Below are positions 2,406 through 63,296 of a DNA stretch of 64,000 bases, in pieces (within the stretch, counting starts at the first letter, position 1; every line of letters starts with the position of its first letter). The notes beneath the pieces were generated by a model that was not told the DNA's origin, made no database searches, and worked only from the letters and a program-made list of their open reading frames with translations. This DNA is from Patiria pectinifera (Eukaryota > Echinodermata > Asteroidea > Valvatida > Asterinidae), in NCBI GenBank assembly GCA_029964075.1, contig CM057148.1:32729916-32793915 (forward strand), in the 5' to 3' direction. Made by a program: the position numbers and the translations under genes.

Positions 2406-5400
2406 GTAGGTCACGGGTTAGCCCTCAGTAGTGTGGCCGCGGTATGGTTCCTACTAAAGCGCGTCAACAAGCGTCAACAAGCGTCAACAAGCGTCAACAA
2501 GACTCAACGGTCGTCAATGAGCATCAACAAATTTTGTACATGCTTTTGAACATTAAAAGTAGCTTTATATGGTAGAAAAAGCAACAAAGAACATTTTCTG
2601 CATATCAATTAAACTAAAGATAAAATTTTTAAAAACTTTTTTTTTTTTACGCGAAATGTACGACGAATTTGTCGATTAAAGTTGGCCGCCATCTTGTTTA
2701 CATGAAGCTTAGCCACTGATTTCTATATATAGACTCGATAGCGGATAAAGAGCCGCACAATGAATGAATTTGACGCCATATTGGTGAGACCGGTTGGTGA
2801 TCTACAAAGGACAAGTTGCCGTCTTTATAGACAGCATGATTTCTTTTGTAACATCGGCGATCGCGGTTCACTTAACTTATATTTTGACCACCACAAGTGA
2901 CCAAGATTTACAATTTTTCTAACGTCGTGCCGGTTTACTTTTTTAATGCCGCAGTTCACTTTTTCACCATTTTGGAAATAATAATCACTACGGAAATGTG
3001 TCCTGTTTAGAACATCATAATATGTGTAAATGACCAAAATGCGCATCAACTGTTGATACAACGCGCGCGTATATACGCGTAGAACATTCGTATTATACGC
3101 GGCCATCTTTGTGAGACCGGGGGCGAATTGGTCAATATGCAAAGTCTACTGTGAGACTGGTGTATGGATATCCGCTATCCAGTCTTTATATAGAGATCAG
3201 TGAGCTTAGCCCTATTACGCATGCGTGAAGTGTACAGAGCCATACTACGCATGCGCGAAGCGTACAGCGCCATCCAAACAAGATGGTGGCCGACACTAAT
3301 CGACAAATTCATCGTACATTTTGCGTTAAAAAAAACAAGTTTTTGAATAATTTTAACTTTAATTGATATGCAGAAGATGTTCTTTATTGCTTTTCTACCA
3401 TATAAAGCTACTTTTAATGTTCAAAAGCATGTACAAAATTTATTGATGCTCATTGACGACCGTTGAAGCTTGTTGACGTGCTTTAGTAGGACCGCACGGT
3501 ATTGCTGCACTGTATCTCTGGCCACACGCCAGGTTCTCACCCTCTACTGAGGAGTTTCTCAAAAAATTCGCAAAGTTTCTTACATAAAAAGTTACAATAC
3601 ATTTGGTTGTCGCACTATTAACTGGGGCGCTAGTAGCTCTACTGAGTGAAGCCTTGAACTACGGTACCCTCCGTACAAACGCTCCACCGATTTGGCATAC
3701 TTGGGTGACGGGTACACGGTCGACATGACGGTATGCAATTTGTGCATGCCCTCACGAGGACAAAAGGCCACAAAAAACTGATAAAGAGAATACAAATGAG
3801 AAAGACAGTTACCCTGGATAGATCCACACATTCATGACATTCCATAAGACCCCTTAAATTGTTCCAAACAACCGGTAATTTTGAAAAAAAGAACAAAATA
3901 GTCTGAACTTACCGCTCACAATTAAATGTGTCTGCCGAGTTGCACAGTCCATCACTGACATGACTGATGCATAATTCATCGCGCGCGTATGTGACGTCAC
4001 CATTGAAGAAAAACAAGTTGCGCTTTTACTCAACGACTGTTTTATGTAGACATATGTGCCCCGCGCCGTCTGACTGTGTGAGCTTTTAGCGCGGGACACA
4101 TATGACTACATGAAACAGTCGTTGATTAAGCGCAACTTGTTTTTCCTTCGATCGAGCGGTGACGTCACGTCAGACGCCCTCATTCGGCAAGTCGAAGCAA
4201 GGTCTGAGCTTCACGGCAGACACATTGAGCTGTAAGTTTTCTGACTATTTTGTTAGTTTTTTTTTCAAAATGTCCGCTGTTTGGGAACAATATAAGGGGT
4301 CTTATGGAATGTCATGAATGTGTGGATCTATCCAGGGTTACTGTCTTTCTCATTTGTATTCTTTTTACCGTTTTTTGGGGGTCTTTTTGTCCTCGCGTGG
4401 GTATGTACACTATCATGCTACTGTGAAGCCGTCACCAAAGTATGCCAAATCGGTGGAGCGTTTGGTTTGTACGGAGGGTACCGTAGTTCAACGCTCCACT
4501 CACTAGAGTTAGGGTGCTAGTAGCCCCATAAATGTGGCCAATTTATACTCCTAGTCCTAGAACTATGCTCCGCAGAGCGGAGCCTCATAGACAGCTTACC
4601 CTGCAACCAAGTACAAAAACGTCCATGACAACCAAGCCATTTCCCATAGAACGTATTTAGTCACCAAGCCACGTACGGCCTGTGCGCGGAGCGTCCCGTT
4701 GCTAGGGGGAGCCAAAAATTAATTAAAGATCGAAATTATTTTGTGAGCAAAAAATCAACCCAGCTATAGTATGACTGCTAAATAGCACAAAATTGTTAAA
4801 TTCGGTACCTTCAGAGGACTAGTTATCCAAAAATCATGGTAAATCGTCAAAGAATGCAGACGGTTTTTGACAAGCATGGCGTCTCCAGACTGATTCCCGG
4901 CCACCCTAATAATAGTCAAGAGGCTAAAGGGGTCGAGGAACCAGACGAAAGCTTTAATCATCCACTGAGCGTGCGTCAATTTTGGCAAAGCGCACTGTGG
5001 CTGTTACCTGTCATTCCAAAATCTTTAAAGCACTCTGCAGTGAAGCGCGCCATCTTGTGTGCGCTCTTCATTTGCGGTCGCGTATTGCATCCGGGCACTT
5101 TACAGAGCGCCAAAGATTTTGGAATAGCCGCGGTGCGCTTTGCCAAAATTGACACACGCACAGGCTGTACGTGGCTTTGTGACTTATATAAGTTATAATA
5201 CGGAGGTAGTCCAGCGAACCAAAAATCATCGATCGATCATTCTGCGTGCATGTTACAAGTGTCAGGTTGGCTCAGTGCGAAAAGGGCATATTTTTCATCA
5301 TTTTGGCCTAAAAACCGACAGAATCCACCGATGTTTGTTGGGTGCACATAACGTGAGAATGTCAAGAGTTATAGTACGCAGTTTAGGGGCAAACTGTGCC

Positions 5401-8400
5401 GCGGTTCTGTGGGAAATGGCTTGGTTGTGATAGACATTTTTGTACTTATTTGGTGTTTTGTAGAAGCAAACAATTTTGCGGGGTAAGCTGTCTATGAGGC
5501 TCCGCTCCGCAGAGCATCATAGTTCTAGAAGAAGCCAATTTACTGGGCTACCTCCGTAAATAAAGGCCACACTTCCACCATGTACAAAAACATGTCAAAC
5601 TTTATCAAATTTTTATTTTCACATTTAGGCTTAGTTTGTAGGGTTTTTTTTGCTTTAGAAGCATACTCACCCTCTTTAAAGGCTAATCAGAAAGCGCTGC
5701 CTTTTTCAGATGTCTATTTTGCGTGAAATGTCCAGATTCGTTTGCACACGTTTGCTCATTAAAATTTCAACATGAAATTTCACAAAAATTAGACATCTGA
5801 AAAAGGCAGCACTTTCTGATTAGCCTTTAAAGAGGGTTAGTATGGTTCTAAAGCAAAAAAAACTACAAAAAGCCTAAATGTGAAAATCAAAATTTGACAA
5901 AGTTCGACATGTTTTTGTACATGGTGGAAGTGTGGCCTTTATTTACAGAGGTAGTCCAGTAAATTGGCCACATTTATGGGGCTAGGGCGCTAGAACTCCT
6001 TTTTTGACGACAGACCACATGTCCCAAATGTCAAAAAAGGAGTTCTAGCGCCCCAGTTAGTAGGTCTAATGCACCTTTCAATTGTTTCCCCGCCGGGCTG
6101 CCCCACCCAAGACGTGGGGATTGTCACTTTTGAAGTGACAAAATCCCCACCCCTCGGGCAAAATTTAAGTGACAATCCCCGACCATACCCCGACATACAT
6201 ACATTGGGTGCACTAGTACATGCATTTCCATGTAGCCCGGCAATGGTAACAATGTAATTTGAGTGACCAAAATCCCCACCCTGGGGCCTGAAAAACGTGA
6301 CCAAATCCCGACATCGGACCTGGGGCTGCGCAGGGGGGGGGGACCTTTGATAGGTGCTTATAGAATGATGTCTCAGCTATTCACTTCTGGGATGCTTACG
6401 GTAGGTGTGATCCAATTTTTCGAGAAATTTTTTGAAAGATTTCCATATACGATGTTCACTCAACACCCTGTGTACAAACCCTATGAGATTGGACTGAAAA
6501 ATTCTAAGTGTTTTCTAAGAAAATGCTTGTATTTTCTCACTGCTCAAATTGACTTTGATGACATGAAATTGCTATCTGGGGGCTTGTTAGTCAATACCGA
6601 GGAAAATTAGTGAACTTCGTATATATGGAAATCTTTCCAAATTTTTAAATCTTTCTGGAGCCCATATGCGCACGTAAATCGTCTGTTGATGGCAGCCATT
6701 TTGAATGTAAGAAGCGATGACCACAAAGCTGTGACGTCGCACTTATATAAATCGATCTTGTCGCTCAGGCGCACGAGTTGCGATGCGACGGCTGTTTCTT
6801 GTACAACATCTCAACCGATAGTATTATAGCACGCAGCCATACAGTATGGGCGAATCAATTGTACAAGAAACAGCCATCGCATCGCAACTTGCGGCGCGCT
6901 TGAGTGACATCGATTTGCATAAGCGCAACGTCATGCTCGGTCTTCGCTTCTTACATTTTAAATGGCTGCCATCAACAGATGATTTTTGTGTGCATATGGG
7001 CTCCAGATAGTCTGAGTAACTAGGACTCTACGAATCACCTTTTTTAACATTTGGACATGGTCGGGCGATAGTAGAGTCCTAGGTACATAGCTGTATTGCT
7101 GCCTTATGCGCCCCTGTAGGCTTCAGTGGGAATTTAAATACAAATGTTGGTGGTTAGGTTTACATACCTTTGGGAAAAAAATAGGGATTTCACCTTCAAT
7201 TTGGGAAACATCCTTGTCACAAACACCTTGTTTGCGGCTGCCATTTTAAATTCAGAAAATGTAGAGTTGTGCATGGCTCTGGCTAGACTGTTTCCTGGTA
7301 AGCATCAGACAGACCAATCACAGGGCACTTTGATTGGTCACCTGACCAATCACAGGGCACTTTGAAGTGAGAACAGTTAGATTGTGTGCAATTTTTATAA
7401 CAAAACAAAATTGTTACACAGATTCAGTGTCCATCTTTTTATTTTTTAGTATGCACACTCAAAATCAAATCACGCAACCCAAGGTTTATGTCGAGTTGTA
7501 CATACATGTATAACAGACGAGTTGGCCGACGGTCGAGTTGGCAAACAGTCAAGTTGACTTGAAAGTGAAGTCGAGTTGGTCAACGGACGAGTTGGGTCAA
7601 CGGTCGAGTTGGTACGACGGTCGAGTTGGCTCGAAAGTGAAGTCGAGTTGGTCAACGGACGAGTTGGGTCAACGGTCGAGTTGGTACGACGGTCGAGTTG
7701 GCTCGAAAGTGAAGTCGAGTTGGTCAACGGACGAGTTGGGTCAACAGTCGAGTTGGTACGACGGTCGAGATGGCAAACGGTCGAGTTGCCTGTAATCCCT
7801 TCTTGACGTACTCAAGTATTATGCACCAAAAAATCATGGGTGGATTCAGTCCTGATCTTTGCAAAAAATAATGAAAAAAATCCGCGTTCCGTACTGAGCA
7901 ACATGGAAAAGTTATACGTTCATTAAGATCATTTGCGATTGACTTGTGCGTGTGCGCGAATGGCTAGCATCAGATGGGCCAATCACAGTGCTCCCTGATT
8001 GGGTGCCTCGATGGTGCCCAATCAGAGCGCACTGTGATTTAGACTGTTTCCCCATATTTGAAGTCCAAAGGACAATGGAGTCAGGGAACAAGACTAACTG
8101 TGATTGGCCCATCTGATGCTACCCGTGTGCGCACGCGCGCAAGTAAATCGCAAGCGATCTTCATGAAAGTGTAACTTCTCCATGTTGCTCAGTACGAAAT
8201 GCGGATTTATCATTTTTTGCAAAAATCAGGACCAAATCCACCAGTGATTTTTTGGTGCATAATACGTGAGTGCATGTATGTCCTCAGCACGAGCATGTCC
8301 TGTGAAGACTACAAGTACAAATGCATAAGAACGCACGTGCATGCACAGCCTGCATACACGTAGCATAGAAGGCCTAAACTGCATTGCACATGCTCGTAAG

Positions 8401-11400
8401 TCTTCAAACGGGGAGTTCGTACTGAGAATGTTTTAAACGAAAGCGTGATCTGCAGTTAATTTTTGGTAAACACATCGCCCATTGATATATATACGTTTTC
8501 TAAACCAAGTGTTTGCATTATTCTGGAGACAAAAAGATGTAAACGAAATCTCAGCTTTCTGCATCAGGTAAAAATATGACAAAAATGTGTTTTAATTTAA
8601 AAATTAATGTGGCCTGACGTTGCGAACTTAGCAAGTTCTTCTTCAGAGGCTAAAACAGAAATGACAGAGGTACAAACATTAACATGGGGGTGCACACAAA
8701 CATGCAGGGCTGAAAGAAGAAACACAAAAGGAGGATTAGGTGGGAAAGGTGTGGAAAGATGCAGGGGAGGGTGGATGAGAGAACAAAGGAACAAAGGGAG
8801 ATGGCAAACCACAAGGGGTCTAGCGTGAACAGGGGAGGGATCAAAGGTCACAGGGAGTGGGAACGGACAAGAGTGTGAGAGTGATGATGATGGGGGGGGG
8901 GGGGAAACAGGAGGGGGGTGGAAAGGGATGAAAGATGGGGGAAGATGGGTGAACACAAACAAGGAAGACCAGGTGGATTATCTGTAACAGAAGACAATGG
9001 AGGAAGAAAAGGATTAATCATTCCCTAGTTGGATGTTGAGACCATGTGGTTGAATAGTTCGAAGACGATTCATCCACACTTTCTCTCTGCTGAGGCGAAC
9101 TGAGTCCTTGCGATGGCCAAGAGATTCAATGCCCTGCAAAATCATATCAGAAATGGAGTGGTTAGGCAGGTTGAAGTGATGACCAACAGGGGTGTCTAGT
9201 TTCTTGGTGTTGACCGTTGACCGGTGGGCATAGAAGCGCTTCTTGAGCGTAAGTCTCACCTACATACTGCACTCCACAGACCCTGCAAGAAATGAGATAT
9301 ATGACATTAGAGGTGTTACAAGTGATGTTACCAATGGTTCTGTGGGTAGTGACAGAAGAGTGGCCAGAAAAGGAGTCAGACTCCTGGATATGAATCTGGC
9401 AGACAACACATCTGGAACTGCACTTGAAAGTACCATGCTGGGTGAGAGGATGCATCTAAGGATGGGACTTCAGCTCGAACAATCAGGTCCCGTAGATTTC
9501 GAGGACGCCTGTAAGCCAATGTGGGGCCGTTGGGGATGGCGCGGGCAAGGCGATCTGAAGTATGGAGGATATGATGATTGTCATTTGTGATTTTGCGAAG
9601 GGGAGGGAGATTGGGGTGAAACGTGGTAACCAAGGGAATCATGGGTTTGGCCATGGCAACAGGGGCCTTTCCCGTGAGGGCTAGATTTCTGGGGATAGCT
9701 TTAGCTCTGGCAATGGCACGATGAACTTGGCGAGAGCTGTGACCCCTGGCCACCAAGTTGTTCCTCAGTATCTGTGTATGGCGGGAGAAATCGGAGTCAT
9801 TAGAACAAATTCTTCTGAGTCTGAGTGCCTGGCTGAACGCTATGCCAGTTTTGCAGTGCCTGGGGTGACAGCTGGAGGAGTGGAGGTACTGGTGGGTGTC
9901 TGTGGGTTTGGAATACAGGTCAGTGGTTAGTGAGTTGCCTTGCTTGCGGACGGTGACATCCAGAAAGTGGGTTTGGTGAGCCGAGAACTCCGACGTGAAT
10001 TTGATGGTTCTGTGGAAGGAATTGATGTGGTTAGTGAAGGTCAAGAGACTGTCCTCATCACTGGTCCAGATGAAAAACACATCATCAATATATCTCCACC
10101 AGATCCAAGGGCGACATGGGGCCGAGGCAAGCATGCGTTCTTCGAGGTCACCCATGAAGAGGCAAGCCATGGAAGGGGCCATGCGAGTGCCCATTGCGGT
10201 GCCGTGTACCTGTAGATAGTGTTCACCAAGGAAGGAAAAATTGTTCTTCGTTAGTATAAGTCTCATGAGGGTGCCAACATCACTGATGGGAGGAGTCGTG
10301 TGTCCTGCCTTGGCCAGAGCCAAGGAGCAAGCACGAACACCCTCCTCATGTGGGATGTTGGTGTACAGAGATGCCCAATGATGGCTGTGCTGGGAATCTG
10401 GTCCTTGATTCCTTCAAGCTTGCGAGGAAGTCTGGGGTGTCGTGAATGTATGACGAAATCTGTGGGACAAGGGGTTTGAGAAAACTGTCAATGAACAGGA
10501 GATGCGTTCCGTGGTGAGCCATTACCGGAGATGATGGGTCTACCGTTGCCAGCCTTGTGAATCTTGGGTAGAAGGTAAAATCTGGCAGTCCTACAATCAC
10601 AGGGAGAAAGGAATTTGTGAGCTTTCTTGGACAACTGGTCACGTGATCGCATATCGTCAAGTACCTGTTGTATATCTCGACAGAAAGTGCCTGTGGGGTC
10701 AGAGTCAAGGCGGGTATAGTTAGTGCGATTATCCAACTGGCGGTGGGCCTCATCAATGTACTGCTGACGATCCATGATGACCACAGCTGAACCTTTATCT
10801 GCTGGCTTGATGATGATGTCGTTGAGAGCCAGGCGCTCCTCTCTGGGGAGATTATCATGAGTCCTGTGGGGAAGTTGTCCGGGTTAGTGACTTGGGAATT
10901 GATAACTTGAACGTATGTCTCTATGGCTGGCACACGATTCTTGGGGGGTACCCATGAACTCTTGACTCGAAAAGGCTCAGGTTCACACGGTTCACTGTCC
11001 AGGAAAAATTCACGCAGACGGATTCTACGTAGTATTCCGTGAGGTCTTGGCTGAGCTGAACCTGGTTCACAGAAAATTGAGACCCTTGGAGAGAAGTTTG
11101 TGCTCTGTCAGATATAGATGAGGAAGAAAGATTAACTACAGTGTTGACAGGGGGTTCTGGCGGTGGCGTGGTAGATGGGGACCTAGGACGTCTGAAACGT
11201 CTGTGTCTGCGTTGCTGTTGCTTGGCAAGCAAGCCACCAATCTTCTTGTTTCTCCTGTTGAGTAGGACAGAGTCAAGGTTAGACAAACCCCTTTCAATCT
11301 CATCATGGAAATTCCTGTACGTGGAATCAGAACAACTGGATTTGAGTTGGGAGTCAAGGTGGGAAATATTCTGATGGAGGTCCTCACGTGTAAATTGACA

Positions 11401-14400
11401 CTGCTGAGAGAGAATATTGATGAGTTTAATAGAGGCACCATGTAAAACTTGATTCCATCTCCTTTGAAGGTGTGGTGGGAGGTTTCCTAAGCAGGGAGTG
11501 TGAGACAGTTGCAAACCTTTGGGGATAAATCGAGAGAGGGAGTAAAAACTGTAGTTATCCTGATGGTAGGAAAAGCGTAAGGCCTTTTCCTTTGCCTTTC
11601 TGAGCTGTTGGAAAGTGCAAATGGTGTCACTCATATCTGTTGAAAGGGAGAGAACAAATGGTTAATACAAGAAATCAGTGGAGGAACAAGAAGACAAAAA
11701 GTGCAATGCCTTTTGAAGGGACAGAGCAAAACAAAATTGTAGGTACCTGTAGTGTGGAGAGAACAGTTTGATTAGTACATGGTAAAAGAAGGAACAAAAC
11801 AAAACACAATGAAACTTACATGTCAGCAAGGAGGATCACCACGAAGGGATACTGCAACAGAGAATGTGTTTTAATTTTTTTTGCTTTGGTAGTAGAATTA
11901 ATACCCTGGACGACAGTTGTAATGCAATGAAGACGTCGTCCAACCTGGGGTAACGAGTAAACCTACATTCAAGTATTCAGTAACCACCATCGTTTGTGCA
12001 AGACCTGTAGCCGCGTGAATAGCGTGTACACCTACCGGTACATGTACATTGTACATGTATCTCATGAGTTAGCCCCATAAATGTGGCTGAAATACTGGAC
12101 TACCTCCATATTATCAGCCACAAAACCTACATACTCCAGTGCGTGGAAGGTCCCTTTGCCAGGGGAGCAGAAAATCACTCGGGAGGTAACACACTGAGTA
12201 TACAGTGTTTAAACGTTGGTGAAAGGCAAAACCTAATTTGATTTCCAGTTTTGTTAGAAAATACTTTGAAAATGCAATCAACTCTCCATAGACTTTGTAT
12301 ACAACCACGGAAGTGGCGTCAGGATACTACATTCTTTCCAATTCCAGTCTCCTAGCCCCTTTTTTTCTTTGGAAAAACTTTACTTTAGAAGCACCCACAA
12401 TTAGAGGGTCAGATTTCTCAGAAACGGAAGGCAACCAGTGTATATGTGACTATAAACAGATTCTCTGTTGTGTTCCTTCTCTTTCTAACTTCTCTGGGCG
12501 GTTTCAGCGGATGATTGAGCACTTAACAGCATGTAGAGCAATGGTTACAGTCACATGCTCATGTATCCGCTGTGCTTACTTTTCCTCAGGCTGGGTTCTG
12601 AGGAATACAGCTGACACTGAGCACAGTGTTTCACTGAAATGTATGGGTTTTGAGCAGCTGTGTTTAATATTTACATTCTCCATTTTCTCCTATTTTGCCG
12701 ACAGCACCACGATTTGGCTGACAAAACTGACTAGTGAAGGGGTATGACACCCCACCTCCCCTCTAGCAACACCCGTGCTAACCACATACCGCCGTGTTTT
12801 GGGCCCACTTTAAAAAAAAAAATGACATTGAAAATTTGCCAATTGGAGTTTGGGTGAATTATACCTGAGCTACATCAGCTTACATGTAGATGCAGGTTTA
12901 AATTTTAACGGCCAAAATTTACCATTTTCATCACCATATAGGCCTATATAGGAAACATCTATACTACAATCACGAAAATGATGGAGGGCGCTGCCATTTT
13001 CCCGACCGGTCTCCCATCCCGCCCGCGCCCGTTGGCCGCGGGGGATGCGGAACGGGGCCCGGCTATTTCCACCCTATTTCCCATAATTCCCTTCCCCATT
13101 GGGCCGCGGCGGCCATCTTGCGTATGGGCTGGATAATTGACGTGCCACGTTGTATACGTTCGTTATGAGCATGCAGCGTATGGGCCGGAAAATTGACGTG
13201 CCACGTATATGTTCGTTATGAGCATGCACCGCATGCAACTTGCTCCACATTTCTTAAGCTTCAGCACAGCGTTGTTGACATGGTTGCTCCAGTTTTCTCT
13301 TTGAACGGTAAGTCTCATTTATGATATGTATTGTTGTTTGTGAAAAGTGGTATTCTTTCGAACGCCACTGGCAATCAGAAGCATTGTTGTTTGTGAAAAG
13401 TGTGAGTTTGTGAGTGTCCAATGATGGCGTAGTCTGGTGGTAGTGGAGGGTTGTACGGGGAGGGTTAACGGGGGAGGCCTCGGACATCGAGAGTTTGGCC
13501 GCGGCTGTGGGTTTACTTAGCTAGGCTTAATGTGGCCAATTTACTGCATGACCTTCGTAACTACAGGCCTCACTTGGAACATGTACCCTAACATGTTTGT
13601 AGAACTAAAAAAAAAACTCAAATCAAAATTAAAGACGTGATCAAATTCAAACCTCAGGCCAAAAACCAAAAAAAAAAGGCAAAGACTAAAACCTGAAACC
13701 AACACAGTTAGAATAGTGGATCTTAGAGAATACACTCTGGCAGAAAATCAAATGACTCGACAACAGACATGAACCCAAGCAGGATAAAGAGGAAACTAAT
13801 ACATTGATGACTGTTCAGTGTCTCTGCTGTTCTGCTGAGATAAAATCACATGCGAGGGGAGGGGGTTCACAAAAATACAACATATAAGACATGTTTCGTT
13901 GTTTGGCATGTTTGGTTAGTACTTCAGTAGTGCATTCCGCATCAATGGGGTATTTCAACACCTGTCTAATTTATTTGTAGCTATTGTTAGCCGATGTATT
14001 TTTTTACAAGTATTCTTCACCTTAGTCGTTATTCTTTTCTTTCTAACTCCTTTACAAAGGACTCCCGATGGCACCCACATCACATGACCAGCTCCAACCA
14101 TGCTCCAAGCATGCTCCAGTGCATGCTTCAACCAGTTCCCAAAGCAAGAATCTCAACTCAGTCTCAAGACGAAGACGTGACACACCTATTCTTTCCAGTT
14201 CAACTGCAAGATTCCTGCTTTTTCTCTTTACCCATTCAAAACACATTTTCCTTCTATCCATAATTTTATTTTTAGAAGTCATGAAATAGTGCAAAAAAAA
14301 TATCACTCTTTTCTGCTGTTTTATGTCCATCCTTTTTTAAAATTATATCCTTGACTTAGTTGTACCCAAGAATAATGATGGAATGATTACCCGATAATTA

Positions 14401-17400
14401 CTGGCCAAGCAGACTGTGTCGATCCTGGCAAACTTATTTGATAACAAAACAATGTCTTTGATTACCAAATTACATAATCGTCTTGCTTGAAAGTCTTTCA
14501 TGGAATGTTTGTGCCTATGGTAAACAAGCCTGGACCGACATTCCTTGCGAAAATTGCTCCGAAAACTGACTACAATTATATCCCCTGAGTTTTGTCGAAG
14601 TACTACCCTGTACAGTAATGAATGCAAATACATTATTACTAAAAAAAAATCGTGTATACCTGATTTCATTTTCACAGTTTTGTAATAAATACATTTAACA
14701 TGTGGTGATTGACATAATTATGAAGTGCTCAAATATGTCCTTTTTTTTAGTTTTACTCTCTTCTGCAAATAAACGTGTTACAATACTTTGCTGTACAACC
14801 CCATCACCATAATAAAAACACCAACTGCTATAATGACATTAACTTCTACTTAATACATAAGAAACATCCCCTTCACCATAACAAATTTAAATTGTTGCCC
14901 ACTTCCCCGGAAATATAAGTGACCATTCACAGGTGTAACATAAATAGGCATGGGCGTCGCAAGGTGGGGGTCCCCCGAAAAGCCAAAAAAAAAAAAAAGA
15001 GGCGCGAAGTCATGGTGGTGTGAATTTAATGGGTTGGGGGGCAAAATGTCCCTGCCCCCCTCTAAAACTGATAAATCGAGAATGTGTTGAGAAAAACAGG
15101 CATTTTTGGGCCAAAAATATGTTTTGCCCCCCTCTAGAAAAAATCCTGGCGACGCCCACACAATATCCAACCCCCACCCCCACTGGCTGCCCCCTCTGCT
15201 CCTCTGTAGTGAGAATGATGGATACAACGTTGTATAGGCCAAGATCAAAACCGCGTTTCATCTAAATTACCTAATTGTACAGTTGGTGTTTACGTCCTTA
15301 ATGGTTTGGCACCATGAAAAATCAATGTTCAAATTGACTGGACAATATTCTACCACAACATTATTTATGAGCTTTATATAATGAGACATCGCATGAGACA
15401 ATCGGTGGGCAATAAATACTTAATTTCATTCAACTGTTGACAGCAAGACCTTCCTAATCGGCGCGCAATTTAAAACAACATTTAAACGATATGAATCCCA
15501 GCACAAACATAAACCTCCACAATATCAGCGATTTCAATATCACCATCTTCCCTCTATAACAAAAACCATTTCCCCCCATCCCTGGAAATATATTTCTACC
15601 CATCCCCGGAAATATTGGTGACATGGTTGACGGGTTTTCCAACTTGATGGGCGTTCCAACTAGCACCCTTCACCCTAGCTAGCCCCTTCCCCTATATTGA
15701 AAATATGTCCTGGACCCTCGCACAATCTCCGCAGGAAACATTATGTGCGCGCACGTTGCTAAACGCAAATACAACTTAGGCGAGACTGATGGCGAGTCCA
15801 AATAGGCTCGCATGCAGCAGAGGGTCTGATTCTTTATTTGACTTAACAGTTGTTTGGAGTTATTAGAGTTTAAATTATCGAGATTTCACTGTATACAGTA
15901 ATTATTACGAAACAGTCAACTCCACCCATCTAGCGGGTGCCGCGCGAAGCGCGGCATCCCGCTAGTCAAAAATCATTTAGCCTTTATTAGCAGTCAATCA
16001 TGAAGCACTGGATCCACTCAAAATGTGAACGCGAACAAGTTGAACAAGCGAGGTTTGCAATTCAAACAAGTAGGCCTACCACGCCGACGCGTGATTGGCC
16101 CGTGCCTTGCATGTATACATTTCACAGGGACGGGCATACGCGTAGTGTGCCTGCTATTTGGATTTGTGCACAAATGGCACCGTTTGTTTACATTCAGTGT
16201 ATGTATTAAATAGCTTCGTACGTGCTTCCTTCGGGGTTTTCTCTCTAAAGTCTTCCACAGTGGTATTCTCCTTTAATTAGTCTTTCCAATGGTACATGTA
16301 CCGGTACTTCACTTGATTCGGAGTAAACTTTCCAAGATGATGAAAAATCCCAAGAAACGTGAACGTTATTTTCATTTCGATTGTCACACTGATAAACGTT
16401 GAATCAAAGGTATTTTTTTCGGAGGTGTTTTCTCATCAAGTGTCTTGCCGAAAAATTCACAGCCCTACCGGTATGTGATAAAAAAAGTGTACATGTAGTC
16501 CTATTTCTGTCGATTTATTGTTGTATCTCGCATATCAAAAACTTATTTGTAATATAAAAAAGTGATTGAAAAGACGTCCTCCTGTGAGCTGTTTTTACGC
16601 AAAGCGAGACTGGATACAATTCGGCCACAAGAGGGGGTTTTATACGAGCTAAAGCACAGACATGCGCACAAACCTTATGTCGCCCTGAAAACAGAGGTGA
16701 CTTTCAAGCAGTAGTGTGCGGTAATCAGCTTGACGCACTGATATCATTGACAAGGATCGCTCCGATATTGCGTGGAGAGTCCCTTGCCCTGTCATGCCTG
16801 TGGTCCCATTGTCAGTGAGTTTGATTACTTTTTACCCCTCAGCCGAGAGGCTCGAGGGGTATTGTCATCGCCTAGGGCGTCCGTCCGTCCGGGCAGCTTA
16901 GTTTCCGGATGATAACTTGAGTTACAAATGTTGTTTGGGGTTGTAACTTCGGTAGGGGGTTGCCCTTGGGAGTAGGCAAATCAGGATTGGTTTTGGGGTC
17001 AAAAGGTCAAAGGTCAAGGTCACCGTGGTGAGTTAAAGGTAAATGGTTTCCGGATGATACACGTAACTTGAGTTAGAAATGAGATTTTGCTGTCTAACTT
17101 TGGTAGGGGGCTGCCCTTGGGAGAAGGCAAGTTGGGATTGGTTTGGGGGTCAAAAGGTCAAAGGTCAAGGTCACCGTGGTGAGTTAAAGGTAAATGGTTT
17201 CCGGATGATAACTTTAGTTGGAAATGAGATTTTGGTGCTTGACTTAGGTAGGGGGTTGCCCCTGGGTACAGGCAAGTTGGGATTGGTTTTGGGGTCAAAA
17301 AGTCAAAGGTCAAGGTCACCGTGGTCAATTTAAGGTATGGTTTCTGGATGATAACTTGAGTTAGAAATGAAATTTTGGTGTCTAAGTTTGGTAGGGGGTT

Positions 17401-20400
17401 TCCCATTGGTACAGGCATGTTGGGACTGGTTCTGGGGTCAAAGGTCAAGGTCACCATGTTGAATTAAAGGTTAATGGTTTCCGAATGATAACTTGACTCT
17501 GGCTGAGGAGTTTCAACAGCAACGCTGTTATTTCTTTTTTATTACGGTACAAGTTTTATTATCACATTTGCATGTTTATTTATTAATCCTGAATAGTCCT
17601 GAATCCTCCAATGTTCATGCATGTTAGTGTTACATGTACATATCTCACATACATATGGCACACGTAAGAATATTTTAGAAAGCAATACACACTGTACCAT
17701 TTCAAGGAAAATACAATGTACATGTACCTTGTGTACATTGTACAATATTTGTACGGACGCTTCATGATTGGTGAGGCAAAAAATGTTGCCTACCAAAACC
17801 ATCAGATTTCACACCCAAACTCTCAGATATCAGTAGAGATGTAATGCCCCAACAATCCCAACTAAAGTGTTGCAGTTGGACAGGCCCAACTATAGTTAGG
17901 GCATTACAACTATGTGGATGGGCATGGCACAATAGAGGTCAAAACATGCTGAACAAATACATTATACAGACGAAAACCTTTGTAAACTGGTGGTTTAAAA
18001 CAGACGCAAGTAAAAACCTAATGGAGAAGCAACTATTTTAACCTTAGCTTAAAAGGCAGTTTACCTCGGGCCATGGTGACTTTACAGTAAAAATAAAAAA
18101 TATGTTGCTGAAAGCCAGGAAAAGAGGTCTACGTGTATGTATGTACAGTATGTACATTGTATGTTATTGAAGTGAAACATGTCTTCATTTTGTATTATAA
18201 ACCCTTTGGGCCTTTTGTTTCTTAGGAATTAGAGGAAGCCCTTTTTCTGGATGCAGGGGTGGAGGAAAGTGACTTTATCGTCAATCTGGTCTTACAACTT
18301 CTTCGCGGCATACATGGAATTAAAAGTATGAGGTAAGTGAAAAGGGACTGTTTGGACTAAGTCAGTTGACTATCTTCCTTGTACATGTACATTCATGTTA
18401 GTTGCAGCATTCATACTTGACACTCTGAGACTTGGTACATCATATTCATGTTGAAAAAAACAATGGAAAATCCAAGCCGAATGTTCAGTGAAAACAGTGG
18501 ATGGGTAGGGGAATTTTTTGGAAACCTAACAATGACACTTGTACCCAAAACTTGTGCAAATATTTTTAGGCCTTAAAATAAAAAGTTACATGCCTGCCGA
18601 TGGGTTTGACTGTGATTTAGTGGTAGTCAACAGGGCCAGTAGGAAAATGATTCTGATCCTCCAAGTTCAGTAGCTCATTGAAAAATGATGGTGTGTAAGT
18701 ATTATTCAAAAAGTGTAATTAAAAAAGAAAACAAACCCATCACATCACTGCTTACAATCAGGATTTTACTCTCATTTTATGAGGTAATATTGTTTTCAGT
18801 TTTAAAACTTGTTTTGCTGGCATTTAATCTAAATTGAGACACATTGAAAAACTTAAAACTTCTTTGGTTATAATTTACTTTCCTCTTTTCCTTTTGCATA
18901 TTTTGTACATGATATGAGTAAATGGAATGATCTAAAAACATGACTTATAAATTGATAACTGGTATACTTTTATTTTTGATATTACCAAACAACTAAACCC
19001 TAAAACAATAGCCACACATACACCTTGCTCTTTATGGTATGACAGTGATTTCCTGCCAGACAGGAGATTGAGAGGTTACAGTTCTGTCGTGAGGCACGTG
19101 GGCCCTACACCATGTATACATGCACCCTACGCTCACAGAATGCAGTGTACCAGTACATGTATATGATATTATGGAATGAAAAGCTTATTGCAAGTGCATA
19201 CATACCGTAGACTTGATAAACACAACATTGTACATATGCACACAATGTGTTGTAGTACCACTAGTCAGCAAACGCTTCATACATTTGCACAGTGTTTTGT
19301 GCTGAAGCTAAACAGTATCCCAAGATAGTTTGTAAGTGTGCAGCACAATGTTGTAGGCGATACCTCCATTTCCCGAGACCGAGACCAAGACTGAGGCATT
19401 CCAGACCAAGATCAAGACCAGCTCTTTCGAAACGGAGACCAGGACTTCCGAGACCGAGACTTTTGAAGACCGAGACAGAGACCAAGACTTCTGAGACCGA
19501 GACCAAGCATAAATAAACATACATGGTGTTGAAACTGATTTCCCTTGTGCTTTGTTGTACCCTGCTTTAAATCAAAATATGTTCAAAAGATAACTTCCCA
19601 CTGATAATACTTTTTTGCCAATAGTGTTGTGCATAAATTTTTAAAAATCTCAAATTTCCAAATATAGTATTGGCATGGACTTATGAACGGAGTCAGAACT
19701 CTTGGGTGACTTACATTTTGACCATTAACATTCCAATCCCTCGGGAATGTCCATAGCTATAGGGCGATTCCATGGTTACTCGCTTTACAATTTTTGCATC
19801 CTTTCGTGTTCCGATTGCTGTGGTTTTAGCAGTAGTCGGACTATCTATCTCTTATGCTGCATTTATATACCCTATTTATATTCAAGGCTTCACCCTGATG
19901 GTAAAAAGAATATGTTTGTACCATGACAAGATCGTGGCACTCTTCGAAAAAAACGGTTAGTCACATTACACAAAAAGGACATGCCAAAAATTGGCTCTGT
20001 TTTGATTCCCCTGTCTGCTTAAACTGAAAGTGTAAAGACCAAATTAATATATTTACAGGACATAGTACCTACCATAGTACTTAACTGAAATGGTTAATAA
20101 AAAATGAAGACCCAAATCAGATATAAATTGTACGGCGAGAAAGGTTGGTTACTCACATTACGGTTACTCGCATTACAGTTTGTCCGACACTTTGGCTGGG
20201 GTTAAATTTAAATTTTACCCGCACAATTTTGATCAGATTTTAACTGCATGGAGTTGCACAACCCTAAACGTATGGACTGAAACCAAAATAAAGCCAACAA
20301 AATGTAAAGGAATAAAAGATAACCAAAGAAGGATTTTGGTTACTCGCATTACGGTTACTCGCATTACAATTTGGTTCATTTGGTTGGAAACAAAATCAAA

Positions 20401-41400: not shown

Positions 41401-44400
41401 CCCTTTTTGCATAACACAGTACTGGAATTGATTAAGGCAAGGAACTTGGGAACAGTGTTCACACATGTTGTTGTGATCAATTGACCATTGTGCACTGAGG
41501 CGTGATGGAAATTGAATAACACTCAGTGGGGTTTAGGCCAAGGATAAGCGGTATCTGCACAATCAAAAAGTTTCAAAATTGACTTCATGGTTTTGTAGTT
41601 ATACCCTAACTCCCTATGCCTTTTTGCTAGAATGTAGCCTCAATCTTGCAAAATTCTCCAATTGGCCTCATGGAAATATAGCATATAGCCTCAATCCTGC
41701 AAATTCCTCCATTATTTCTTGAATATGGTATGTGGAGGGGTGACCACTGCCTGAATCCTGCAAAATCCTGCGGCAGTGACTGTCAATATGTTGAGGTTTG
41801 GCCAGTGACATCCTGGAGCAGTACGGAGGATTTCAAGCATAATCCATGCCTATAATTATGCATGGCTGAGAAAAAAAAACAACACAATGTCCGGCCTAAG
41901 ACCTTGACAAAGTACATCCTATGAAATCAGTAACGCACTTTTGCCACGTAACCTCAATCCTCCAAATTCCTCCATTTTGTCAAAGAGGATTTTGAAGGAT
42001 TCAGGGCGGTTAGGGTTTTAAAAAAAAGGCAGACGGTCACTTTTTTGGGGACATACTGTATGGAGCAACATAATATGCAATCTCTATCACTTGGGTTAAT
42101 GTAAAGTAAACATTTGGTTCAGGTAGAAAGTCTTCCAAACATTTATATATCTATCTCTTACTTTGTTGTATTCATTATTATTTAAAAACAGAATACACCT
42201 TGATGGCTGAGAATCTTAAATCTTGTTTGGAGTACAACATGGAAAAGATATTCCCAAAAGAGGAAGTTGACAGTGATGGGATTGACAGTGATGGTAGCTC
42301 AAGTGTTCTGGACCACTATGTACATCAAAGACCTCCACAGCGTCAATCTGCAAGAAATGCCAATACACGACTGGAAAAAATGGATGATAAGGTGTATGCT
42401 AGACTAAGGGGTCTAAGCAGTAGTGAGTCTAGCATTGTTGAAAGCCAGGATAGTTCAAGAGTTGCTAGTGATGAGGAGGATGATACAGATGTGAATAAAA
42501 TAAAGGAAGAAACTGTCAAGAGTGAACACCAAGTTAAATTGAAGCAGCATGAAGATGGGCAAGATCATGGCAATGATGAAGGCAACCAGAATGATATCAA
42601 GGTCTCCTCACTCACTGACACTGATGACGTGCCCACTATAAACAGTCACATGAAACAAGAAACATCCATATTGTCTACATGTACAATAAACTACTCAGAG
42701 AATGATGATCAAACGAATGAACTGAATGCTGATACATCCCCCACCTGTACTACTTCCAGAAAAGATTACCAAAACGATGCCAGTGCTTTCAAACCAAGAG
42801 GTGTTATTGCATTTGCACCTTGTTTATTATCCAAAGAGCAAGCTGTTGACGATATTCCTGTTAAAGATATACATCAGCAACAGACACAACCATGCAATGA
42901 TGATAAAAAAGAAGTTTCAGAACAATGTGGGAAAGATGTTCTGGGTGCTGTTACAACTGAATTAGGTTGTAAAGAGAATCAGGGTCAGATGTCAAATGCT
43001 CCCTTGCAGGCTTCCAGTACCTCAAAGGCAAACCGTGTCAAGCCTGTCCAAAATGTACGTCCATATGTACCCGACAGTCATTCTGAAGATGGTAATGCAA
43101 TGCAATCTTTACCACGTGATCAGCACAGAGCAACACTAACATCTCAGGGTCCACCAGCAATGATAGATTTGAATTCCAGACATCTTGATGTTTTGAATCC
43201 AATGACATCATCATCAAGTGAAAGAGACATACCTTTTCACAGTGAAAATTCCTTTGGCTTGAATCAAGCTGTACCTCGGGGAAATTTGTTTGTACCTTCC
43301 AGTCAGAATCAAGGTTTTCAGCATTCCAAGCAATCTGCACACTCAGGGACCAAAAGTCATCCTCAAATTACAAACATTAAGTCAGAAAATCTACCTGACC
43401 TGCCAGCACCATTGACGGTGTTACCAATCCAAGAACCTGCAGTGCATCATGTTCCAGCCGTGCAGCCTTTGTTGCCTTCATCCAACTCCTTTCAAGCATC
43501 ACACTGGAACGAACAACAGTCGACAAATATAACAAGCAATCCCTTCCAATATTCTGGACATTTTCCACCCCCATCATCCCAGAGCTCTAGAGGAACTAAT
43601 GTAAGTGAGCTGACACAGAAATTATGGCATCCACTGGGTTTTGAAGATAAAAGTGCATCTGGCTATCCTGCGGCTGATAAGTCAGCTTTGTATATGCACA
43701 CAATGGCAAATCATAATGAGATGCATCCAGATCACAAGAAATTATCCCAAGAAGGTACCACAAAGGCAGCCCAAAGCAATTCACAAAGTCGCAATATACT
43801 TGAGTCACTACTTCATGGAAAGTCTAATATATGTACATCAGAAAACCAGCAATCAAATTATGCCTCCAAAAATCTGTATATGTTGTCCATGTCATCCAAA
43901 AAGAACGCCAGACAGGATAACCCTGACTTCATTGCTAAAGATGATAGCATTGCTTCTATTAATATGAGGCAGTTTAACTTGTCATCAAGTGGAAATGTCC
44001 ATTATCGAGATGCTCCTGGACATTGTCATACAGATAAAAAGGAACAACCCAACAGATCAAGGCAACCAATGTCTAATAATTCACCAGCTCATCTGGGATT
44101 GAGATATGTACCCCCAGTGTACTGCTCTTCTCTTCAGGGAAGTGTCCAACTACCTAATCAAACAGTTGAAGCTGCTGCTTCCAATTCTAGTCAGTCAGTA
44201 ATAAGACAACCAGAGAATGTCATGCAAGGTGCAGAGACATCTATTGCCAGACAACAGAAAGTGGCATCTATTCCACAGTACCCACATTCCTCTTCAGACC
44301 AGAGTAATGTAGCCGGTCGCGCAGATCATGGAAAGGATAACATGTCTCAGGTGCAAATGAGACATGCAGACAAAGATGGAGGTATTGGAACAATGATGCC

Positions 44401-49194: not shown

Positions 49195-49600
49195 TCTATT
49201 GAATATTATACAAATATCGAGTGGATCAGCGTGGAATGGGAGGAATATTATCGCAAGGTGAAATCTGGACTTTTCCATTTCAAGAGGCGAAGCCGAGTGA
49301 ACTGGAAAAGTCCAGATTTTACCGACCGATAATATTCCTCCCATTTCACAATTTAAAGCCACTCAATATTTGTTTTATATAACTGACGTATAGATGCTTG
49401 TCATTTGATATTTTTGAACTTCTATTTGAATACAAAATTGGTGAAAAATGTATTTCTCTCTTCCAAACCACCCCTTCATGAAATGTTTGAACCCAACGCT
49501 GTAGCGCTGGCTCTTTGGAACAATACGCGCAACGCTGAACGCCTCAGCGTGGAACGGGAGGAATATTATCGCAAGCATATAGCGGCGGGGGGGGGGGGGG
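49195..49600. repeat. Dispersed repeat with internal palindrome, copy 1
   Basis: A palindrome around 49285 (GGAATGGGAGGAATATTATC mirrored) leads into a ~260-bp block (ATGTATTTCTCTCTTCCAAA to AATACGCGCAACGCTGAACG) shared with 52459-52735 and 59400-59640. Confidence 0.7.
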
Positions 49601-49604
49601 GGAT

Positions 49605-50083
49605 CACTGATCTCTATATAAAGACTGGATAGCGGATATGCATACAACATTCACACAGAAGACTTTGCATATTGACCAATTCGCCCCCGGTCTCACGAAG
49701 ATGGCCGCTTATAATACGAACGTTCTACGCGTAAATACGCGCGCGTTGTATCAACAGTTGACGCGCATTTTGGTCACGTACACATATTATGATGTTCTAA
49801 AAGGGACACATTTCCGTAGTGATTATCATTGCGAAAAGCCGAAAAAGTGATATTTGCGGTATTTTAGTAACCACGACGTTAAACAAAATTGTAGTTAACC
49901 TTGGTCAGTGGTGGTTGACAAAATATAAGTCAAGTGAACCGCGACGTTACAAAAGAAATCATGCTGTCTATAAAAACGGCAATTGTCCTTTGTAGATCAC
50001 CAGCCGGTCTCACCAATATGGAGTCAAATTCGTACATTGTGCGGCTCTTTATTAGCTATCCAGTCTTTATATAGAGATCAGTG
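49605..50083. mobile_element. hAT-like MITE, family CACTGATCTC, copy B (479 bp, inverted to A)
   Basis: Ends CACTGATCTCTATATAAAG and complement; perfect 8-bp flank GGGGGGAT (49597-49604, 50084-50091). Inserted in the repeat ending near 49600. Confidence 0.9.
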
Positions 50084-50091
50084 GGGGGGAT

Positions 50092-52735: not shown

Positions 52736-52829
52736 AACAGCGCAGCATGCATTTCACGTATTTTTTTGCGTGCATTTAGTGATCTTCTCGCGCATACGCA
52801 ACTTTCTCCGCGTCGTCGGCATTCAAAAC

Positions 52830-52872
52830 CATTGATCTCCATATACACAGTCTGTGTATATGGAGATCAATG
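52830..52872. mobile_element. Micro-element, 43 bp, TIRs only (CATTGATCTCCATATA)
   Basis: Two perfect 21-bp arms (52830-52850, 52852-52872) around a single T, flanked by the 8-bp repeat TTCAAAAC (52822-52829, 52873-52880). Ends match the CACTGATCTC family except C/T at positions 3 and 11. Confidence 0.85.
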
Positions 52873-54284
52873 TTCAAAACACAACCTCGTGCCCCGTGGG
52901 TACGATCTTGCAGCGCCATGTTGTTTCCCATCATGCCTTGCGCCATCATAACCCCTGGAATTGTGTAATTTAAATATACCGAAATACGGTATATTATCAA
53001 CCTCGACCCCAGGGTGTCGAGCAGTACGCGCCCATCACTACTTGCTCTCTCACCCTGGTATTGGATCATTTGCATGTGCAAGATTTTTGAACACGTATGC
53101 AAATGAGGAATAGTCTGGTGCCTGCTTGTGCGTTACATTTGCGTTTGTTTTTGTATGCGGTGTCTGGGGTAAAAGCAGAGTCAATTCGTCGCAGCGCGAG
53201 CATGGCTTGAGTTACGAAAAACACGATTTATTTATTTAAATTGCTACAATCTTACCGAGACAACATGTAGTATCACAGTTCATATTAATATGAACAAATT
53301 GGGAAGGAAATGAGTATTTTCGAGAAGGCGTGGATGAATAATCGCGAAAACGCGTACTGCACGTTGTGAATAACAACACCAAGTAAACGACAAAAATCCA
53401 TTACTAGCCAATTGCCGTATCGAATCAGGATGCAGGAAGAAAGTTTCCTATCCGAGGTTTACTATTCGAAACTAGGTTGGAAATAAAAACGCGGCAGACA
53501 TAATCCATATCGTACAGGAATCGCGACTTTTGAATCATAATTTTTTTTTTTCGTACGTGACATTACGTGCAAAGCTAAGCACGCGAGCGCATTATGGGCG
53601 CGCACTGCGTGCAATCTTCGAAATGCCCGCGCAGTAGGCTGTGAATAGCCATTCAGCGTCATTTACGTCATCATCACAGCCAGGGGTTAGTGTAAGGAAC
53701 GAGCACGCGCCCCTGGAGTCGAGGCTGTGCAAAACAGCGGTAGTAGACGACGCACTGAACGATTGTCTGGTTTTCATGTCTTAAAATGTATCCTTCTCGA
53801 ACGTACTTAAAAGATGATTCAAACCAACAATTATCAGTAGACAAAGTGAACAAAGATATAAATTGCAACAGTTTGGTAACGGCGCTAAAAAAAAAATCAA
53901 ATATATATATATAAAAAACATTAGGGACAAAAACCATACAAAATGAAACGGAAAAACATCGTTCGCTTTTGAGTTCGGTTTACACATTTGGTAAATTTGC
54001 CGGGTTTACCTTAGATCAGCCGTAGTACCATCGAAAAGGATGATAGATTATCTTCATTTCACAGGTGATTTGATGAAATAAGCAAACCTGTAGCTTATAA
54101 AACCCGTCATTTTCGAGTAAACCCATTTTGAAAGCTTCGTGCACAAATAAAATGGTCTCTAGTGCCCTCTATGATCGTACTTAACTGCATTTCAGGGGCG
54201 GGAACCAGTCAGTTGTAAATCGTTTCAGTTAAATGTATACATTTCCAACGCGTCGAAAGATTACAAACGGAGCGCGCGTGGCGT
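52873..54284. repeat. Repeat mosaic, no gene
   Basis: Segments 52882-52945 and 53683-53725 recur inverted in 54693-54842 (for example CCTCGTGCCCCGTGGGTACG and GAACGAGCACGCGCCCCTGG). The remainder shows nothing recognisable. Confidence 0.5.
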
Positions 54285-54292
54285 GGCTAGCC

Positions 54293-54680
54293 CACTGATC
54301 TCTATATAAAGACTGGATAGCTAATAAAGAGCCGCACAATGAATACATTTGACGCCATATTGGTGAGACCGGCAGGTGATCTACAAAGGACAAGTTGCCG
54401 TTTTTAAAGACAGCATGATTTCTTTTGTAACGTCGCGGTTCACCTGACTTATATTTTGACCACCACCACTGACCAAGGTTAACTACAATTACTTTTAACG
54501 TCGTGGTTACTAAAATACCGCAAATATCACTTTTTCGGCGTTTTGCAATGATAATCACTACGGAAATGTGTCCCGTTTAGAACATCATAATATGTGTACG
54601 TGACCAAAATGCGCGTCAACTGTTGATACAATTACAACGCGCGCGTACATTTACGCGTAGTCTTTATATAGAGATCAGTG
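54293..54680. mobile_element. hAT-like MITE, family CACTGATCTC, copy C (388 bp, internally deleted)
   Basis: Same orientation as copy A; lacks about 90 bp near the right end. Flanked by perfect 8-bp GGCTAGCC (54285-54292, 54681-54688). Confidence 0.9.
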
Positions 54681-54739
54681 GGCTAGCCCAGCCCAGCCTC
54701 GACTCCAGGGGCGCGTGCTCGTTCCTTACATGTACTAAC

Positions 54740-54765
54740 CACTGATCTCTGTATAGAGATCAGTG
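54740..54765. mobile_element. Micro-element, 26 bp, TIRs only (CACTGATCTCT)
   Basis: Two 11-bp arms around GTAT, flanked by perfect 8-bp GTACTAAC (54732-54739, 54766-54773). Same ends as copies A-C. Confidence 0.85.
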
Positions 54766-54842
54766 GTACTAACGATCGCGCAAGGCATGATGGGAAACAA
54801 CATGGCGCTGCAAGATCGTACCCACGGGGCACGAGGTTGAGC

Positions 54843-55329
54843 CCAGCCATGTTTACGGGTCAGATCCAGGGTCCGTGTACAGTGTATATGTACGTGCACA
54901 ATAACGTTACATTCAACGAAAAAACGTATATAAACGCGAACGTGAGACCTTACTTTTCTCATTGAAACGGTTTCCGACTTGAATGATATCTATACATCGC
55001 ACTTTCCGTGGCATCCTTTACCATTTGTCAGTGAAGACAATTTTATACTACACGACACGGAAAAACAAAAAAATGCATCAAATACTCTGTTTTTTTTACG
55101 CTAAGGTTTGCAAAAGTGACTTTGATTGCCTTAAATTCCTGTCCACGTGGAAAGAAAAAATGTATCAAAGTACTTTGAGTTTGAGCGTGTATACGTGTTG
55201 ACCGATACTTCAGTGGGTCAAACTGCGACTGCAGACATCTATGTTTGCTGATTATCAGTTAGTCTGGTGTAGTACAGGCAAAATACTTCATTTTTGGAGT
55301 GAACCTCAAACAAATTGCAACAGATTTTT
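54843..55329. other. No gene recognised
   Basis: AT-rich; short frames only. Confidence 0.4.
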
Positions 55330-62014: not shown

Positions 62015-62204
62015 AAAGATAATTATAGTCCATCATTTGGACGTTTGAAGCAACAAAAGTGTTCAAAATCTAATGAAAGATACTAAACAACTAACCTGAT
62101 GAAGTTTCAGCTCAGCTTCAGCTGTATATTCCGAGAAAAACAGCATTCTGGGGTCTCAATTTCAAATCAAAAGTTGCTGAATCGTGTTTTGAATTGCAGG
62201 TTAA

Positions 62205-62852
62205 AGCCCGGTTCATACTTCACGCGAAAGAGCGAAAGCGAAGCGAAATTCGTGACGTCAACAATACATTCGAAGCGCGCCCCCCATTGTTGACGACATG
62301 AATTTCGCTTCACACATGCTTTCGCGTGAAGTATGAACCGGCCTGCGATATTTTTTTACACAAATATCTGGGGTACTTTGTGTGCTTTCCTATGGGGCAT
62401 GGTTTTTATAACCAGGCTTGAGTGGAGGCTACTATTTTGTCAACTTGGTACAGATTTCGGACTTTATTTCCCTTAAAAAAAAATCCTTCAGAGCCTCGGA
62501 TATGAAAAGAAAAAGAAAATTGCTGCTATACAAGTAGAATCCGACTGAAAAAAAAAAAACGTTTCTAAGATAAAACTTGAAATTGTTGGAAAAAAGAGCA
62601 AAATCTGTAGGAGCAGAGCAAGGAATCGAACACGGGGATCTCTGACCAATAGCCAGCGTGCCTAACCTCTAGGCAACGGCGGTGCTCGACCAAACCCTGC
62701 ATGCAATTCATGAATTATATACTTTCACACATGTGGAGAGAGTACGTACGCGCGCGCGCGTAGGCGCTCTACAATCCTATAACCGTGATTCAAGTCCCCT
62801 GAAAAATGGGTACCCTGTACTATTGTGAAAATAAAATATTCGCAACCGGGCT
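62205..62852. mobile_element. Inserted unit with GCCCGGTT...AACCGGGC ends
   Basis: Its first 137 bp form a palindrome (GCCCGGTTCATACTTCACGC mirrored at 62323-62342). The interrupted host sequence resumes at CTATACGC near 62851. Confidence 0.5.
62610..62695 (-). other. tRNA-like sequence, probably SINE or pseudogene
   Basis: On the minus strand TTGCCTAGAGGTTAGGCA resembles an A box/D arm and GTTCGATTCC a B box; an anticodon-like loop CTATTGG sits between. The T stem pairs poorly, so a working tRNA is unlikely. Confidence 0.3.
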
Positions 62853-62884
62853 ATACGCAATGTCGCGCACTGATCGACGAATTA

Positions 62885-63296
62885 CATAGATATAGAATAA
62901 AAAGATTAGATCGGCAGCGCGTCCACACGCGCCCATTCACTGTGCGATAAATCTCCGCCATTTTTGTTGTCTCTCATGGACGCGCAACAAATTAACGTAA
63001 AGTAATGGAGCCAAATGTATCTTTCCTCCAGCACGTGACCTAGCGCAACGCGCGCGAAGCTAGAAATGCGCAACGAGTATTTACGCGATGCGCACACGCG
63101 TTAGCGGAGCATGGTCATTGATCTCCATATATGTACTATGGAGATCAATGAGCATGGTGCACTCGTGCGCGTAAACAGTGTTGCGTTCGTCACGTTTTCG
63201 CGCAGTGTTTGTATCTTTCCTCCAGCACGTGACCCTCCATGCAAGTCTGCGCGCGTGGACGCGCTGCCGATCTTGTCTTTTTATTCTATATCTATG
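62885..63296. mobile_element. hAT-like MITE, CATAGATATAGAATAAAAAG ends (412 bp)
   Basis: Perfect terminal repeats, continuing through GATCGGCAGCGCGTCC, and a perfect 8-bp flank ACGAATTA (62877-62884, 63297-63304). A direct repeat TATCTTTCCTCCAGCACGTG lies at 63017 and 63210. Carries a nested micro-element. Confidence 0.88.
63116..63150. mobile_element. Micro-element, 35 bp, TIRs only (CATTGATCTCCATA)
   Basis: Two 14-bp arms around TATGTAC, flanked by perfect 8-bp AGCATGGT (63108-63115, 63151-63158). Inserted inside the 412-bp MITE, so it is younger than that insertion. Confidence 0.88.

Follow-up and report, generated by a model that had tools for sequence, protein, structure and literature searches.

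Short palindromes of the CAYTGATCTC transposon family in Patiria pectinifera as probable excision scars

Introduction

Transposases of the hAT superfamily cleave at the edge of the element, which would leave no terminal-repeat stub of about 20 nt behind. The target motif of the P element is GTCCGGAC; it is not used as evidence here. The P element makes an 8-bp target duplication, and the second-strand cut of its transposase falls 17 bp into the 31-bp terminal repeat (PMC7776569). At the junctions left by P{wa} excision in flies, two copies of the duplication enclose no more than 17 nt from either element end, with microhomology or inserted bases; end joining after partial gap repair is described as well (PMC2895639). 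P-like elements are active in zebrafish (PMC10983969), the hAT element Hermes has a target motif biased to T2 and A7 (PMC10368747), and in rice the footprints of other superfamilies have been compared between two genomes (PMC4423477). A narrow search of the open-access literature found no natural genome-wide record of P-type scars.

Here, we report the analysis of a transposon family with ends CAYTGATCTC whose shortest units hold little more than two stubs of the terminal repeat, and compare these units with the systems above.

Results

Family members in the window

The window is a stretch of 64 kb (C20:32729916-32793915) from the Patiria pectinifera assembly (613.5 Mb, 1020 contigs). An earlier note on this DNA had described six units with related ends and perfect 8-bp flanking repeats, different each time, and had judged the six matches to be far beyond chance. 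A scan allowing up to two mismatches per 10-bp end, pairs 20–15,000 bp apart, and at most one mismatch in the 8-bp flanks found 46 left-type and 66 right-type ends, from which it returned exactly the same six pairs and nothing else (Table 1). All six flanking repeats are perfect and mutually different; the left end of the copy at 2714 has one mismatch.

Table 1. Units of the CAYTGATCTC family in the window, with positions counted from its first letter
Feature	Element	With flanks	Strand	Duplication	Remarks
489-bp F2-type copy	2714-3202	2706..3210	.	AGCTTAGC (both sides)	
479-bp F2 MITE-like copy	49605-50083	49597..50091	.	GGGGGGAT	
388-bp F2 copy, internally deleted	54293-54680	54285..54688	.	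GGCTAGCC	
43-bp F1 unit, putative scar	52830-52872	52822..52880	.	TTCAAAAC	modal product predicted for tip annealing
26-bp F2 unit, putative scar	54740-54765	54732..54773	.	GTACTAAC	arms 11 + 14, 1 extra base
35-bp F1 unit, putative scar	63116-63150	63108..63158	.	AGCATGGT	arms 16 + 14, 5 extra bases

Aligned to the 479-bp copy, the 388-bp copy consists of about 366 bp of one side and a bare tail of 20–22 nt (54659-54680), with a 2-bp overlap, AG, at the join. We read it as a probable product of one-sided gap repair followed by end joining, and it fits the P{wa} class of partial gap repair with end joining (PMC2895639).

The window contains several further features. A repeat with CAACCTCGTGCCCCGTGGGTACGATCTTGCAGCGCCATGTTG, at 52873-52930 and near 54790-54850 and also in loci L018, L064, L066, and L075, is frequent in the sequence examined and has been repeatedly targeted by the CAYTGATCTC family. 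Open frames at 9376-11661 and 35722-37244 (- strand) have weak reverse-transcriptase matches (below Pfam's cut-off) and GIY-YIG matches; presumably, they are pieces of Penelope-like elements. Two stop-to-stop frames, 42110-44908 (+) and 28934-30034 (+), of 932 and 366 aa, are without a Pfam match, and tandem arrays lie at 1439-1641 (units of 16/63 bp), 7512-7788 (17/72), and 16901-17496 (151).

Short units and target duplications genome-wide

The pattern CAYTGATCTC-N10-40-GAGATCARTG occurs at 209 places in the genome, nearly all of the matches listed being on contigs C1–C22, while its reversed control gave none. The sample of short units comprises 181 occurrences (174 fetched loci and the window), grouped by their flanks into 146 non-redundant sites; this grouping also fused some differing units at the same or a similar host site. 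Loci were drawn from the matches by the ninth flank base (100 of 259 with C, 100 of 104 each with G and T, A left out), leaving aside many copies of one 26-bp unit whose recurrent GTCCCGT flank marks an amplified host repeat, as well as some two dozen other places. The counts take in exact 10-bp ends only, and hence decayed units are missed.

Two stubs of the terminal repeat between 8-bp duplications with at most one mismatch were observed at 114 of the 146 sites (91 exact, 23 with a single mismatch); two, three, four, five, six, and seven mismatches were found for 11, 7, 7, 2, 3, and 2 units, respectively, so that 21 units have three or more. Shuffled pairing of left and right flanks yields 0.055% exact matches and 0.31% at one mismatch or fewer. 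Chance as the origin of the units is rejected on the strength of this value, the empty reversed control, and the window scan, which gave no further pairs. Thus, the earlier reading of the window as holding one transposon family, with 8-bp target duplications and short forms of little beyond two ends, is borne out at the scale of the genome, where the short palindromes mostly have flanks matching at 7–8 of 8 positions.

The target consensus, GTTRYAAC, is palindromic, and there are weaker preferences for T at position −3, G at −2, C at +2, and A at +3; T2 and A7 reach 58% each (91 exact duplications, both strands). No remnants shorter than 20 bp were found in 341 kb of sequence examined (control also 0). 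One 26-bp unit, flanked by GTCCCGTC and GTCCCGTA, has the same flanks genome-wide (L009, L021, L022, L027, L032) and is a single event that was amplified along with the host repeat.

Empty sites and shared host sites

Host-repeat copies without the unit were compared in 18 alignments covering 11 units: four units gave clean alignments and three nearly clean ones (L019, L103, L104), L092 and L083 gave none, and the alignments for two units of the window were imperfect. A single 8-bp target is present in the empty host copies for units of 38 bp (L049 vs. L080 and L034), 36 bp (L080 vs. L034 and L019), 31 bp (L088 vs. L080, L034, and L085), and 26 bp (L100 vs. L018). For the 35-bp unit of the window, host copies without the unit occur in L066 and L103, with few further bases differing; for its 26-bp unit the closest host copy without an insertion is L075, in which about eight further bases are missing; and the host-repeat comparison found no empty copy for its 43-bp unit. 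Such empty sites prove insertion, but fit a short or a long inserted piece alike.

Units of 28, 30, 31, 38, and 42 bp occupy one host-repeat site, TTTACATC, which also has a broken unit in L019; four further copies of the repeat have nothing inserted there. Occupied and empty copies are interspersed in the tree of this repeat, from which L019 and L176 were omitted as too diverged. Either the target may be a preferred one, or a single old insertion may have been excised independently from each host copy. A search of this host site for a long F1 copy gave no exact match. Another host site, common to L119 and L156, carries units of 43 and 28 bp, respectively. At the site shared by L014 and L152, the duplications of the two host copies differ in parallel, indicating separate insertions.

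More complex arrangements also occur. In L002 (1493-2032), an F1 unit of 36 bp shares its target with a 480-bp F2 copy, ATTGTGGG being present three times. In L085 (1001-1385), a host stretch is repeated four times in tandem, every repeat carrying a 50-bp unit at GGTACGAT, and the same site in related host copies has 26- or 32-bp units, or none.

End subfamilies, long copies, and the size gap

The ends fall into four subfamilies. The F1 end is CATTGATCTCCATATACACAGAC followed by TGGATAG, and the F2 end is CACTGATCTCTATATAAAGAC followed by TGGATAG, with GAC ending at position 23 and 21, respectively; in F3 (CATTGATCTCCATTAGTAAGAC) and F4 (CACTGATCTCTATTATACTGAC) GAC ends at position 22. Beyond GAC the terminal repeat continues; it reaches about 29 bp in the F2 copy of the window, and for F1 the long copy L036 and the unit of L063 give about 39 bp.

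There are 106 exact long F1 ends genome-wide; among the 100 listed, 27 convergent pairs, chosen by eye, span 1.0–3.0 kb, 22 of them 1.76–2.36 kb. Long F2 ends number 812 exact matches genome-wide, many of those listed pairing about 480 bp apart, and long ends of the F3/F4 type have 104 matches. Units of 61–91 bp occur at only seven places, five of which are composites (tandem, nested, or neighbouring units read as one), vs. 209 places at 30–60 bp. One continuous size series is rejected in view of this gap, and with it the graded shrinking from 489 to 26 bp that had been described for the window, where the 479-, 489-, and 388-bp copies belong to F2 and the 43-bp unit to F1.

The 114 duplication-backed units (at most one mismatch) include 73 of F1 and 18 of F2. 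Thus, F2 has about eight times more long ends and four times fewer short units than F1, the odds ratio of short to long between F1 and F2 being 31 (p = 4e-44, with short units sampled and long ends counted genome-wide).

Junction anatomy

The short units keep about 10–23 nt of each end. Seventy-two of the 114 duplication-backed units consist of two arms from a single terminal repeat, neither of them passing the GAC limit, without any extra base, and 42 have extra bases. An arm extending beyond the conserved GAC/TGG step (position 21–23) is needed in one unit of the 114, the 58-bp unit of L063 with an arm of 39; the unit of L046 matches 4 nt past the limit, and arms of 23 + 12 also explain it. 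Since the terminal repeats run on past GAC, the arms do not merely stop at the end of homology. At blunt junctions the longer arm ends exactly at GAC in 11 of 15 cases (p = 2.7e-7 against uniform breakpoints, the limit having been chosen on the same data). From the arm limit, we infer a staggered cut.

Microhomology of at least 3 bp was observed at 34 of the 72 two-arm junctions, vs. 8% (F1) and 15% (F2) of random joins. In the 32 units with 4–30 extra bases, the longest match to a tail covers on average 0.72 of the insert, compared with 0.48 after shuffling; a number of the inserts amount to no more than point changes in an arm. The values are suggestive of inserts copied from the tails.

Two 3′ tails ending in GAC can form G-C and C-G pairs around an A-A mismatch, and fill-in then gives twice the tail minus 3, with A/T at the centre, i.e., a predicted product of 43 bp in F1, 39 bp in F2, and 41 bp in F3 and F4. 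The exact product is the commonest class in F1 (17/73) and in F2 (5/18); it was found at one of 7 F4 sites and at none of 16 F3 sites.

Transposase genes and the superfamily

Profile searches of the genome gave 94 matches to PF05699 (hAT dimer domain) and 56 to PF21788 (P/THAP9-type). None of the 53 PF21788 and 93 PF05699 matches checked lies inside the 27 paired long F1 copies; this check did not extend to 3/56 and 1/94, respectively, which are on small contigs where no F1 pair was listed. On C1, about 3 kb separate a P-type gene from an F1 end, and on C10 about 6 kb separate a second such gene from a 43-bp unit; neither gene is inside an element, and two guessed stretches near P-type genes contain no CAYTGATCTC end. 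A comparison by eye of the 104 F3/F4-type long ends with the transposase matches tied no transposase to these ends.

A hAT origin is disfavoured because cleavage at the element edge would leave no terminal-repeat stubs of about 20 nt, and a P-like one is favoured because the putative scars resemble those of P elements. Nor does the 8-bp duplication, formerly taken as a hAT signature, establish membership, because the P-element length is also 8 bp (PMC7776569). The T2/A7 target bias does fit hAT (PMC10368747). Weighing these points, we consider it rather more likely that the family is P-like than that it belongs to hAT.

Discussion

We propose, with a probability of roughly 0.78, that the 26-, 35-, and 43-bp units of the window and most of the 146 short units are excision scars of longer transposons. 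The grounds are the duplications at 114 of 146 sites, the GAC arm limit, the microhomology, and the tip products, and also the size gap, the F1/F2 odds ratio of 31, and the likeness to fly P-excision junctions. The transposase would put longer elements into 8-bp targets, insertion at the short sites being shown by the duplications and the single-target empty copies. On excision, its cut in one strand would fall at the tip of the element and that in the other 21–23 nt farther in, directly after the conserved GAC, so that each side of the gap would retain a 3′ tail of the terminal repeat. End joining of these tails would follow, GAC/GAC tip annealing giving the modal products of 43 bp (F1) and 39 bp (F2), and trimming, inner microhomology, and copied inserts giving the remaining junctions. 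If one side were first lengthened by gap repair, the outcome may be a copy with an internal deletion, as in the 388-bp member. We observed the duplications, the empty sites, the arm limit, the junction classes, the size gap, and the subfamily ratios; we infer the superfamily, the repair pathway, and the earlier occupancy of the short sites by long copies. Several observations count against the reading: the transposase matches checked lie outside the 27 F1 pairs, no long F1 copy was found at TTTACATC, the F3 tip product is absent from 16 sites, and 21 of 146 units have flanks with three or more mismatches.

The 479- and 489-bp F2 copies are ordinary MITE-like elements; the units of 26–46 bp differ from MITEs in being without interior sequence and in having many junctions found once. 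Edge cleavage sets hAT apart from the CAYTGATCTC units with their stubs of 10–23 nt, if those are scars. The family shares with Hermes the 8-bp duplications, the T2 and A7 target bias, and ends starting with CA (PMC10368747). With Drosophila P footprints it shares 8-bp duplications, capped stubs of the terminal repeat, microhomology, blunt or inserted junctions, and tip annealing among the commonest junction classes (PMC2895639). It differs in the tail limit (21–23 vs. 17), which lies at a conserved GAC with a tip distance differing by subfamily, and in that its putative scars are natural and found in an assembly, whereas the P{wa} junctions come from a laboratory assay (PMC2895639).

The earlier note had left two origins side by side, mobile hairpins and residues of longer copies, and it is the residues that the present data favour. 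If the short palindromes were mobile minimal transposons, i.e., two bare ends moved by the transposase of the same family, this would agree with the 43-bp unit, identical at 18 of the 146 non-redundant sites with differing duplications, with the blunt F2 junctions of 34 and 36 bp, each of which was found at two sites, and with the clean single-target empty copies. It gives no reason for a size ceiling near 46 bp or for arms that are limited at GAC; the parallel F1 and F2 tip products would need two inventions, one mobile 43-bp unit predicting no F2 product; and many junctions were found only once in the 146-site sample. Moreover, well-studied hAT elements need ends far longer than the short units, e.g., 200 and 150 bp in Tol2 (PMC10368747). 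Direct mobility is improbable and is not needed, the arm limit, microhomology, and some end-derived inserts being signatures of repair; that of the 43-bp unit is set aside because repair would explain its prevalence. Amplification could be an alternative for the 43-bp form at 17–18 sites.

Loss of the interior of long copies in place, via cruciform or slippage deletion and without a transposase, would suit the common microhomology joins and the host sites with differing unit lengths (TTTACATC; 43 vs. 28 bp in L119/L156). It is very improbable given the near-empty range of 61–91 bp, the arms that halt at GAC while the repeat continues, and the parallel duplication differences of L014/L152, which mark separate insertions. 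The subfamily counts (812 long and 18 sampled short in F2 vs. 106 and 73 in F1) also argue against deletion at a constant rate, which predicts the opposite; a rate varying by subfamily could fit these ratios. The same anatomy, size limit, and junctions would be expected if transposase-bound broken end stubs integrated pairwise into a new 8-bp target and were then joined, the short units being new insertions rather than relics, and this would fit F1 short units as numerous as long F1 copies. We know of no precedent for such paired integration, and the 388-bp copy is easier to explain by one-sided gap repair. Excision junctions of this form are documented (PMC2895639), and we regard paired integration as very improbable. 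A long-stagger excision sealed by end joining accounts for the data better than a hAT mechanism, mobile hairpins, or deletion in place.

It is possible, though unlikely, that the transposase stands outside the known P lineage and makes a sequence-addressed staggered cut at GAC/TGG (21, 22, or 23 nt inside, by subfamily), the motif rather than the tip distance setting the cut; the scars, at least as numerous as the remaining long F1 copies, would then amount to a naturally occurring collection of germline end-joining products from this animal.

Repeat annotation would label such scars as MITEs or overlook them. If the excision-scar explanation is true, very short palindromes with matching 8-bp flanks can be taken for transposon departures rather than for the smallest mobile DNA, and the likely position of the transposase cut can be read from sequence alone. 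Excisions hidden by copy number would become countable, and end-joining outcomes at many natural breaks would be recorded in one species.
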